Origin: Moorella sp. Hama-1 | GTDB lineage: Bacteria > Bacillota > DSM-521 > Neomoorellales > Neomoorellaceae | Assembly: GCF_023734095.1 (NCBI RefSeq) | Contig: NZ_AP024620.1 | Location: forward strand, 3,158,501 to 3,222,500 | Reading direction: 5' to 3' | DNA length: 64,000 nucleotides | Part shown: piece by piece, positions 48,927-52,055 of the stretch | Layout of the letters: each line of letters begins with the position of its first letter | Numbering within the stretch: the stretch's first letter is position 1 | The notes under the pieces: generated by a model | The model's input: the letters and a program-made list of their open reading frames with translations, nothing else | Databases searched by the model: none | What the model was told of the DNA's origin: nothing | Translations under genes and position numbers: made by a program

Positions 48927-49505
48927 CTACCGCAAACCGTCTTCACACTTGGCCTCTTCTTTCTTTAATCCACCAATCCGCGGCAGGGGCCGGCCCCCAT
49001 CGGTGACGACGGCGCAGACGACAATTTCGTCGGCTTTGGGTGCATCGGGGACCCGCACTTCCATAGCATCATAGTGACTGCGCACAAAACAGGCATTTTT
49101 ATAATGCAGGGGTACATCAATGGCCGTCCCCATTCCGCCCCGCTTCTTGGCTGAAGGAATAATGGCCTTGCCTTCATACACGGCCGCACGGAAGGGCTTA
49201 CCCATTTTGGGGTGCAGGATAGCCGCCCCGTGCTCCAGTTCACCGTTTTCACCGATAATAGCGGCTTTGCCGTAGCTGTCTACCTCTTTAGGATCAATAC
49301 CCAGGGCGTCGACTGCCTTTTTACCTAACAATCCGCCCAGTTCTTCACCGGCATCCATCAGTTCGGAAAGATCTTCGACATATTTGCCGGCAAAGGGGTT
49401 CTTGATGACTGCCAGGGCCGCTGCCTTACGTACCGGTTTTTCCAGGCTTTTTTCCCCTTCGATCAGCGTCTCTTCAACGATGGTGACGATTTTCCTAATT
49501 TCCAT
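48927..49505 (-). CDS. DUF1185 ('amino acid synthesis') protein in the nicotinate operon
   Basis: A 192-residue soluble protein. The family (PF06684) is named for amino acid synthesis but has no established reaction. Features: VEETLIEGEKSLEKPVRKAA, a Gly-rich GEELGGLLGKKAVDAL and HPKMGKPFRAAVYEGKAIIPSAKKRG. Start at 49505 after AGGAGG. It sits between hgd and the UPF0280 gene, all co-directional, which suggests a role in nicotinate breakdown that the nine known enzymes do not cover. No catalytic motif is recognisable to me. Confidence 0.75.
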   Translation of the reverse strand: MEIRKIVTIVEETLIEGEKSLEKPVRKAAALAVIKNPFAGKYVEDLSELMDAGEELGGLLGKKAVDALGIDPKEVDSYGKAAIIGENGELEHGAAILHPKMGKPFRAAVYEGKAIIPSAKKRGGMGTAIDVPLHYKNACFVRSHYDAMEVRVPDAPKADEIVVCAVVTDGGRPLPRIGGLKKEEAKCEDGLR

Positions 49506-49631
49506 GATTACTACCTCCTGATGAAAATAATTTTTAACAGCCAGCATCTGTTTTTGTCCCTAGTTACAGATTGTCCGCCCCTTTAGGACACTGCTTTGCA
49601 TAATCCGCTCAAAACGTCCAGGTAGCACTGC

Positions 49632-50468
49632 TCAGTTAATTGGATGGACCAGGCCATCCGGATACTGGCGCATCTTGCCGTTTAGAAATACTACTGCTCC
49701 CATTAGCGCACCAGTTTCTACCAATTGGCGGCCTTTTGCTATCCCCTGTTCCAGGGCTGCGGCCTGTAGTTCTACCGTTAGAGGACCAACGGCGGTGGTT
49801 ACCAGGAGGTCCGGGATATCGGTGGCCGGGTCCAGCTCCCGCGCCGGCCGGCGCTGGATCAAAGGGGAATCTACATTCACCGCATTTCCCAGGACGGTGG
49901 CACAGGCGTCGGCGACCGCCGCTGAAGAAGCAACAGCTACGGCAGCGTCGGCAATCCCCAGGGTAAAGCTGCGCCCGCCCCGGCCGCTGGTGGCCACGCC
50001 ACCAATATAATCCCCTGCCCTGATGTCCAGGTAATGGGATGGAGGCGCCCCCAGGCGCGGGGCGATGCCGACCCGGGTCTTCTCGCCCCGGCCGAGGCGG
50101 ATAGCAATATCACCGCCGTTATTGACCAGAACTTTGGTGGCTCCTTGTTCTACCAGATAGTCGCCGACCAGTTCCGCCATGGTACCGGCGACGGCTGCCA
50201 TGGGCGTAAGTTCCGTCTCCCCCGTAGTTTTAACAGCAAAATACATCAGTTTCAGAACCCGCGGCCAACCTTCAGGACTGGTAAGCAGGGGCCAGGGCTT
50301 CCGGGCGAGGGGTAGGTAGCGTTGTAAATCCCCCAGCCACCCCCTTACCAATCCTTCCAGCCGGCGCCATTCCCGCCCCAGGGGCTGTCCCCGGCGTTCG
50401 GCCGTAACGCTCATCTGCACCGGACCGATGTCCAGCAGAGCGCGAAAGGGATCAAGCAGCTTGAACAT
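49632..50468 (-). CDS. UPF0280 (ApbE-like fold) protein
   Basis: A 278-residue protein. VLVNNGGDIAIRLG followed by TRVGIAP resembles the GGdi...VGI core of ApbE flavin transferases, and ADAAVAVASSAAVADACATV resembles the ApbE Ala/Thr metal and flavin-binding segment. Its ATG overlaps the stop of the 6-hydroxynicotinate reductase gene (TAATG), so the two are made together. The E. barkeri reductase carries covalently bound flavin, which makes a maturation role for this protein attractive but unproven. The family is otherwise uncharacterised. Confidence 0.8.
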   Translation of the reverse strand: MFKLLDPFRALLDIGPVQMSVTAERRGQPLGREWRRLEGLVRGWLGDLQRYLPLARKPWPLLTSPEGWPRVLKLMYFAVKTTGETELTPMAAVAGTMAELVGDYLVEQGATKVLVNNGGDIAIRLGRGEKTRVGIAPRLGAPPSHYLDIRAGDYIGGVATSGRGGRSFTLGIADAAVAVASSAAVADACATVLGNAVNVDSPLIQRRPARELDPATDIPDLLVTTAVGPLTVELQAAALEQGIAKGRQLVETGALMGAVVFLNGKMRQYPDGLVHPIN

Positions 50469-51976
50469 TAATTCTTGACCCCGGCCACAACTTCTTCTAC
50501 CGGGCGCAGGTGGTGGAGGTGGCCGCCGATGCGCTCATAGGTGCTCTTCAACATGGTATACTCCACCGGGGCTACTGTGGCCGGTGTCGGTACCCAGTAA
50601 AAGGCCCCCGGGGCTGCCACCTTTTCGACATCAACCATGAAGTTGATGCCGCCACCGGGCAGGAGCATGGTTGGCGCACCGCCAATGCTCAATCTTATTT
50701 CTCCCCGGTGGACGGCCCGGGTGAGCTCAACAGGCAGGTTCGTTACCCCGGCCCGAGCCGAGCCCCCGGTGCCGCCGACGTAGAGGGCCGAGACCCTGGC
50801 TTCCTCGCAGTTGGCGGCGATCAGTTCCACCACCCTCCTGACTTCCGGCGTCAGGGGTATCTCCCGGACGTCGCCACCAGCAAGGACCTCAAAGAGGGCC
50901 GCCCTGCGGGCCGTGGTTTCGGTGACCAGGATGCGCATCCCCGGCCTGGCGATATTCATATCAACGGCTTTGATGGCCTGGCGGGGATCGGTAATGGCCG
51001 TACCTCCCCAGCCGTTGCCGGGATCGCCGAAATAACGACCGCGGGTACTCTTGCGCCCGGCCGGGATGACGCCGCTGTAGGTCATGCCCACCTCCTGGCC
51101 GGCCAGGTGCTCGGAAAAGAGGCCGATAATATGGTGGTCGAGGATAATGGCTTCATCCACCACCCCTTTCAGGTCACGGGCAAAGAGACCGATGGTGGCG
51201 CTGCCACACCCCACCCGCATGGTGGTATCTTCCTGGCCGTCGATTACCGGGCGGTGCCCCACCTGGAGCTCCAGCTTACTGCCGTTTTCCACCTTTAAGG
51301 TCACCCGCCGGCAGTTGGCCAGGTCGACAATCGTCCGGGCGGCCATAAAGCCCGACTTGCCGGTTAAGAGGTTAGCGCCGCCGATATAGAGCATCTTTGA
51401 GCCGTATTCCTCGGTATCGACCATCCCCACCACCTGGCCGTCGCGACGCACCCTGGCGCCTTCTTCGCCGATATGCAAGTTGGTATCGATCTTGACTTTA
51501 ATACCGCTATAGCTTAAAGGAGCTTCCGTAACTACGGTTACAACCTCTATACCGCCCCGCTGACCCTGGACGATATAGGGGGCCGGCCGCGGGCAGGGAT
51601 ACTCTGTCCCGGCACCGATGGCAGTGATTAAGGGCCATTCTATTTCCGGTGGTGGCAGGGTGGGTTTAGGTACACCGGTTACCAGCGGCCGGTTACGGAC
51701 CAGTTTACCTTTGATATTGGTATAACGGCGGCAGGCGCCGGTAAAACCCTCCTGGACCTGGCACTGGACCGGGCAGTGGCTGCAGGTGACACTCCCAGCA
51801 TAGGCTTCTTCTACCTTTTGCGCCGCACCCCGGTTACAGACCCGGGTACAGATACCGCAGGAAGAACACCCGGCCCCGATACTGGCCTTTTTTTCGGCTA
51901 TGGTTATGCATTCCAGGGGGCAATTCCGGGCGCAAAGGCCACAGCCGTTACATAGTTCCAGGTCAATCTTGACCAT
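50468..51976 (-). CDS. hnr: 6-Hydroxynicotinate reductase
   Basis: Reduces 6-hydroxynicotinate to 1,4,5,6-tetrahydro-6-oxonicotinate with low-potential electrons (ferredoxin in E. barkeri). 502 residues. Two [4Fe-4S] motifs at the N-terminus, CNGCGLCARNC and CSSCGICTRVC (the last Cys in each joined by the CP pattern), then CSHCPVQC near residue 66 for another cluster. The rest is a unique flavin-binding fold. A GSAT sequence near residue 260 is reminiscent of ApbE flavinylation sites. Start ATG 51976, with AGGAGG 8 nt upstream; a TTG just before it is possible. Confidence 0.93.
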   Translation of the reverse strand: MVKIDLELCNGCGLCARNCPLECITIAEKKASIGAGCSSCGICTRVCNRGAAQKVEEAYAGSVTCSHCPVQCQVQEGFTGACRRYTNIKGKLVRNRPLVTGVPKPTLPPPEIEWPLITAIGAGTEYPCPRPAPYIVQGQRGGIEVVTVVTEAPLSYSGIKVKIDTNLHIGEEGARVRRDGQVVGMVDTEEYGSKMLYIGGANLLTGKSGFMAARTIVDLANCRRVTLKVENGSKLELQVGHRPVIDGQEDTTMRVGCGSATIGLFARDLKGVVDEAIILDHHIIGLFSEHLAGQEVGMTYSGVIPAGRKSTRGRYFGDPGNGWGGTAITDPRQAIKAVDMNIARPGMRILVTETTARRAALFEVLAGGDVREIPLTPEVRRVVELIAANCEEARVSALYVGGTGGSARAGVTNLPVELTRAVHRGEIRLSIGGAPTMLLPGGGINFMVDVEKVAAPGAFYWVPTPATVAPVEYTMLKSTYERIGGHLHHLRPVEEVVAGVKN

Positions 51977-52055
51977 CAAACAGTCCTCCTGGTTACACTA
52001 ATGAATAGCTTCTAGGTTTTCACCGGTATTAATGTTGCCTAGCGGCGTAGAAATC

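Follow-up and report, generated by a model that had tools for sequence, protein, structure and literature searches.

The 6-hydroxynicotinate reductase (Hnr) of E. barkeri reportedly holds covalently bound flavin, in work attributed to Alhapel et al. in 2006, and to our knowledge covalent flavin on Hnr is known from this organism only. Which protein attaches it is the question raised by a locus of Moorella sp. Hama-1 within the window, i.e., the whole stretch of 64,000 nucleotides analyzed here (contig NZ_AP024620.1). A gene for a UPF0280 (COG2122) protein lies there directly downstream of an hnr gene whose product belongs to the same enzyme family and the same pathway as the E. barkeri reductase. 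A sequence-only reading of the locus had proposed that the UPF0280 protein attaches the flavin at a GSAT sequence in Hnr, which would give a role to an uncharacterized family.

The hnr Locus of Moorella

Both open reading frames and their coordinates are borne out. The hnr gene (50468-51979, minus strand), assigned from its open reading frame, sequence, annotated relatives and structure model, encodes 503 aa from the TTG at 51979 or 502 aa from the ATG at 51976. Its stop shares one base (TAATG) with the start of the UPF0280 gene (49632-50468, minus strand; 278 aa). According to family matches and the known pathway, the genes are part of a minus-strand nicotinate fermentation cluster ordered NdhF-NdhS-NdhL-NdhM-Ena-Hnr-UPF0280-AA_synth-Hgd-Hmd-Mgm-Mii-MutL-Dml-DmdA-DmdB. 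Genomes reached with the E. barkeri enamidase (2vun) encode enamidases that are 58-63% identical.

The gene following UPF0280 (48927-49547, minus strand) encodes an ‘amino acid synthesis’ (AA_synth) protein, identified by Pfam (PF06684, 256 bits) and by its neighborhoods. AA_synth often joins hnr and UPF0280 as a third gene, being a less constant neighbor than UPF0280, and two copies stand side by side on several aerobe plasmids (L087-L094).

Fold and Active Site of the UPF0280 Protein

A profile match (NF003322, 216.5 bits, E 4e-64, below the equivalog cut-off of 290) corroborates the UPF0280/PRK04334 identity of the downstream neighbor, and the closest solved structure is that of DVU1097 (2o34; phmmer E 1e-13, Z 22.0). 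The Pfam ApbE profile aligns to residues 80-169 with 24.8 bits, just under the gathering cut-off of 25.6, which is exceeded by the relatives in two other genomes (G317 and G047). A structure model was built from 24 Hnr-linked orthologs (pLDDT 94.6), for which Foldseek returned 2o34 and then exclusively ApbE/Ftp/FmnB chains (E 8e-6 to 6e-4). VIA-align superposed this model on the Mg-AMP-bound Treponema Ftp (4ig1) with Z 16.5 (rmsd 3.2 over 214 residues) and on FAD-bound FmnB (7esa) with Z 15.8, against Z 8.0 for the best unrelated fold. Given these Foldseek hits and VIA-align scores far above that of the best unrelated fold, kinship with the ApbE superfamily is firm, and the model firmly predicts the ApbE tunnel fold for the greater part of the chain. 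The UPF0280 sequence shows no export or lipoprotein signal at its N-terminus.

FmnB uses D301 and T305 for Mg and also the carbonyl of A187; S257 is located at the diphosphate, H273 acts as the base, and D184, R262, and K190 hold FAD (PMC8906456). In Ftp_Tp, the Mg-ligating residues alone proved critical for FMN transfer (PMC4767422). The NNGGD, ATSG, and ADACAT segments that had suggested ApbE in the first place are real and match ApbE blocks in Pfam and profile alignments. N116-N-G-G-D120 (50109-50123, minus strand) corresponds to the N-x-GG-[DNE] block, as seen in a profile alignment and a comparison of 80 sequences. T160-S161-G162 (49983-49991, minus strand) falls on the ApbE TSG and A186-D187-A-C-A-T191 (49896-49913, minus strand) on the ADALST block, a placement also obtained by alignment against V. 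cholerae ApbE. The counterparts of the UPF0280 TSG lie at the FAD diphosphate (T256/S257 in FmnB, S241 in V. cholerae; roles from PMC8906456), and D187 and T191 are equivalent to the Mg ligands D301/T305 of FmnB (PMC8906456) and D280/T284 of E. coli ApbE (PMC4767422). D187, T191, and the TSG are kept in nearly all of the 80 UPF0280 sequences, which cover both branches described below, and the NGGD together with an extra N195 is essentially invariant among them.

According to the profile alignment, the segment containing the catalytic His of ApbE (H257 in V. cholerae, H273 in FmnB) and the HHIxDPxTG loop is deleted in UPF0280, and no His stands at positions equivalent to this base. The adenine/flavin-contact residues of ApbE (K190, D184) have no recognizable equivalents in the profile alignment or the 80 sequences. 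With Mg ligands and TSG kept and the base and most FAD contacts not recognizable, UPF0280 thus retains the metal/phosphate end of the ApbE site. The proposed resemblance to ApbE, Ftp, and FmnB holds for the fold, the Mg-ligand Asp/Thr, the TSG at the diphosphate, and the N-x-GG block, but fails for the export signal, the His base, the DPxTG loop, and recognizable K190/D184-type FAD contacts.

Hnr and Its Candidate Flavin Site

UPF0280 also differs from these transferases in its client. The motif targeted by ApbE is DxxS/TGAS/T (PMC12052999), which Hnr lacks: not one of 67 Hnr sequences contains [ST]GA[ST]. The GSAT sequence (residues 259-262; 51194-51205, minus strand), previously put forward as an ApbE-like target, is conserved in most Hnr proteins, but T262 is Ala in two of them (L012, L089) and Ser in a third (L087), all encoded next to UPF0280. 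GSAT was therefore rejected as the flavin target. C258, directly before GSAT, is invariant in the 67 sequences, and S260 is invariant apart from one paralog (L016).

Hnr starts with a 2[4Fe-4S] ferredoxin domain (residues 1-58; 51806-51979, minus strand), recognized by Pfam Fer4 and by a fold match (Z 8.4, 56 residues, rmsd 1.0). A fold search with the Hnr model (pLDDT 90.2) matched this domain alone and gave no match for the catalytic part. The domain is followed by a motif that is invariant in the 67 sequences, C66-x2-C69-x3-C73-x9-C83 (51731-51784, minus strand), which probably binds a third Fe-S center. Hnr proteins of aerobic Pseudomonadota (L087-L094) miss the N-terminal 2[4Fe-4S] domain and keep C66-C83; a ferredoxin-NADP reductase gene near hnr in three of these loci (L088, L089, L091) might provide a replacement electron feed.

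Two UPF0280 Branches With One Partner Each

We surveyed 398 genomes of the phylum, 14 of which encode Hnr. UPF0280 profile scores fall into two groups, one of 190 to 325 bits and one under 93 bits. The high-score (Hnr-type) UPF0280 is present in all 14 Hnr genomes and absent from 383 of the 384 without Hnr (counts 14/0/1/383, Fisher p 7e-25, a value that overstates independence since the genomes are related by ancestry). The low-score (DUF39-type) UPF0280 occurs in all 132 genomes with DUF39 plus five others, and each of the five genomes with both Hnr and DUF39 has both UPF0280 types. One genome (G111) encodes two Hnr and two Hnr-type UPF0280 copies. In a tree, Hnr-type UPF0280 groups apart from the DUF39-type (support 0.89), and the pairwise distances of Hnr and UPF0280 correlate (r 0.82). 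These data strongly support the existence of two UPF0280 branches, one tied to Hnr and the other to DUF39.

The Moorella genome contains a single UPF0280, and no DUF39, canonical ApbE, or FMN_bind protein was found in it. Of the 14 genomes encoding Hnr, five, with Moorella among them, yielded neither canonical ApbE nor an FMN_bind protein, so that canonical ApbE is ruled out by absence as the agent attaching flavin to Hnr in this genome and four others.

At the level of loci, UPF0280 lies within 728 bp of hnr in 34 of 34 genome-contig loci having at least 1.1 kb downstream, and this adjacency spans Moorella-like, Sporomusa-type, Desulfosporosinus, and Desulfomonile-type bacteria. Several hnr-UPF0280 loci have ena, AA_synth, or ndh (NdhL) shifted or missing. 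At two further loci (L034, L040), hnr lies close to a contig end, and the genome has an Hnr-type UPF0280 on a different contig; in L034, AA_synth directly follows hnr. One hnr stands without UPF0280 (L029), but its contig, from a metagenome bin, is 3.7 kb long and ends there. All 26 aerobe plasmid records with hnr (Pseudomonadota) also contain UPF0280, directly downstream in the regions read. The co-occurrence is strongly confirmed in Firmicutes-type bacteria, Deltaproteobacteria, and aerobic Pseudomonadota, and the linkage by far exceeds what chance would give. One exception carries weight, a 42% Hnr paralog (L017/L127, G368:C22) with no UPF0280 nearby; enamidase-like genes and a transporter of its own accompany this paralog, and its GSAT reads GSMV. 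In another locus (L047), hnr and UPF0280 form a lone pair, with ena, ndh, and AA_synth absent within the flanks examined, which suggests another ring-reducing use of Hnr.

The Homocysteine Branch

In Desulfovibrio, a mutant phenotype shows that homocysteine synthesis depends on COG2122 (PMC5764234). The view of UPF0280 as an uncharacterized family is thus partly right: a genetic phenotype already exists. New here, and strongly supported, is the split into two branches with one partner each; the role of COG2122 in homocysteine synthesis was already known. The homocysteine branch (DVU1097/2o34, DvMF_0044, MA1715) belongs to the same family as the window protein (profile match 99.9%) and is likewise paired with an Fe-S/ferredoxin system and one large partner. 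This partner is DUF39 with NIL/ferredoxin instead of Hnr, and N116, R166, and an insertion at residues 200-230 with D217 are specific to the Hnr branch. As no match to DUF39 (HcyBio, PF01837) was found in the Moorella genome, the window UPF0280 cannot serve the DUF39 homocysteine pathway there.

Homology between Hnr and DUF39, which would have explained a common helper, was not found (profile comparison probability 0.1%). A Cys-x-Ser-Gly/Ala stretch is common to both proteins, seen as CSSG[AV] in eight of ten DUF39 sequences, and is a lead only. The formation of homocysteine from aspartate semialdehyde and sulfide requires two electrons; we know of no flavin on DUF39. Because the family also serves DUF39-dependent homocysteine synthesis, a flavin role must account for that function too.

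Possible Roles of UPF0280

The comparisons of sequences and gene distribution make it very probable that UPF0280 is dedicated to Hnr as its partner or maturation factor. For its action on Hnr, covalent flavin attachment is plausible, with a likelihood slightly short of even. The strongest argument for it is a joint one: Hnr is reported to be a covalent flavoenzyme in E. barkeri, its constant partner has an ApbE fold, and no further ApbE is encoded in this genome. What speaks most against flavin transfer is the missing His loop together with the absent target motif in Hnr. Of the original proposal, the partnership and the ApbE kinship thus emerge strengthened and the attachment itself stays plausible, while its GSAT site does not survive. 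The favored reading, at about even odds, is that UPF0280 is a cytosolic Hnr maturation partner working as a divergent, Mg-dependent flavin attacher of the ApbE type. UPF0280 would then bind FAD and Mg2+ in an ApbE-type pocket and hand over a flavin (probably FMN) to a residue of Hnr outside any ApbE motif. Electrons from ferredoxin would pass through the Fe-S centers of Hnr to the flavin and reduce the substrate, an order suggested by the domain layout and the reported biochemistry of the E. barkeri enzyme. The sister branch may do the same job for DUF39; this link makes sense if both Hnr and DUF39 are ferredoxin-fed two-electron reductases.

A different chemistry is suggested by the homocysteine branch itself. 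Rauch and colleagues suggested persulfide chemistry for COG2122, as reported in PMC5764234, and COG2122 is needed for homocysteine formation (PMC5764234) and more abundant in Methanococcus voltae grown on Fe(II)/HS-. UPF0280 might accordingly handle sulfur, by persulfide formation or delivery or by Fe-S assembly at a conserved cysteine in the partner protein, and the invariance of C258 and the recurrence of CSSG[AV] fit such a role; the candidates are a Cys near 54 in DUF39 and C258 or the C66-C83 motif in Hnr. We hold this reading to be unlikely. Against this stand a fold that is that of FAD/Mg enzymes, the kept Mg ligands, and the lack of any invariant Cys in UPF0280 itself; moreover, Hnr is a flavoenzyme, and its chemistry has no need of sulfur transfer. 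The retained ApbE fold without the catalytic base would suit a flavin- or nucleotide-binding chaperone (for non-covalent FMN/FAD) or a structural subunit of Hnr, the covalent bond then forming autocatalytically, and both the near-constant, subunit-like pairing of the genes and the correlated distances of the two proteins agree with this. We nevertheless hold it to be unlikely, as the Mg ligands retained in all branches suggest metal chemistry and the pair does not always form one operon (in G111, the UPF0280 of the second hnr is 3.2 kb off).

UPF0280 is located inside the nicotinate cluster at most loci, and it could be an enzyme of nicotinate breakdown that is linked to hnr merely via the common route. 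This is very improbable: the known route is enzymatically complete without UPF0280, the pathway served by the sister branch is unrelated, and UPF0280 stays with hnr at loci from which ena, ndh, and AA_synth are displaced or absent (L028, L039, L047).

Flavin attachment, if true, would explain covalent flavin on a cytosolic enzyme and would give UPF0280 a unifying role that includes methionine synthesis of anaerobes and methanogens. More doubtful is a broader version, in which UPF0280 would be a second, cytosolic ApbE-type branch with its own recognition rule, whose sub-branches flavinylate Hnr and DUF39, making DUF39 an unrecognized covalent flavoenzyme. A family with a genetic phenotype only becomes a testable one-partner system of two genes and a colored, fluorescent product, and the Moorella genome is a host with no other recognizable flavin transferase of the ApbE kind.

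UPF0280 in Other Contexts

The sole exception among the 384 genomes without Hnr carries an Hnr-type UPF0280 (G390:C152, L124, 2581-3435) adjoining a gene that resembles a pyruvate-kinase C-terminal domain (recognized by eye), possibly a third partner. A DUF39-type UPF0280 (G346, L126, 7671-8405) lies beside a molybdopterin oxidoreductase, and its genome gave no match to DUF39. The plasmid of Hydrogenophaga sp. BPS33 (L115) encodes UPF0280 at four places and no hnr; these copies belong to a repeated unit that also contains IS1071 and a Rieske oxygenase, probably a remnant of a nicotinate cluster.
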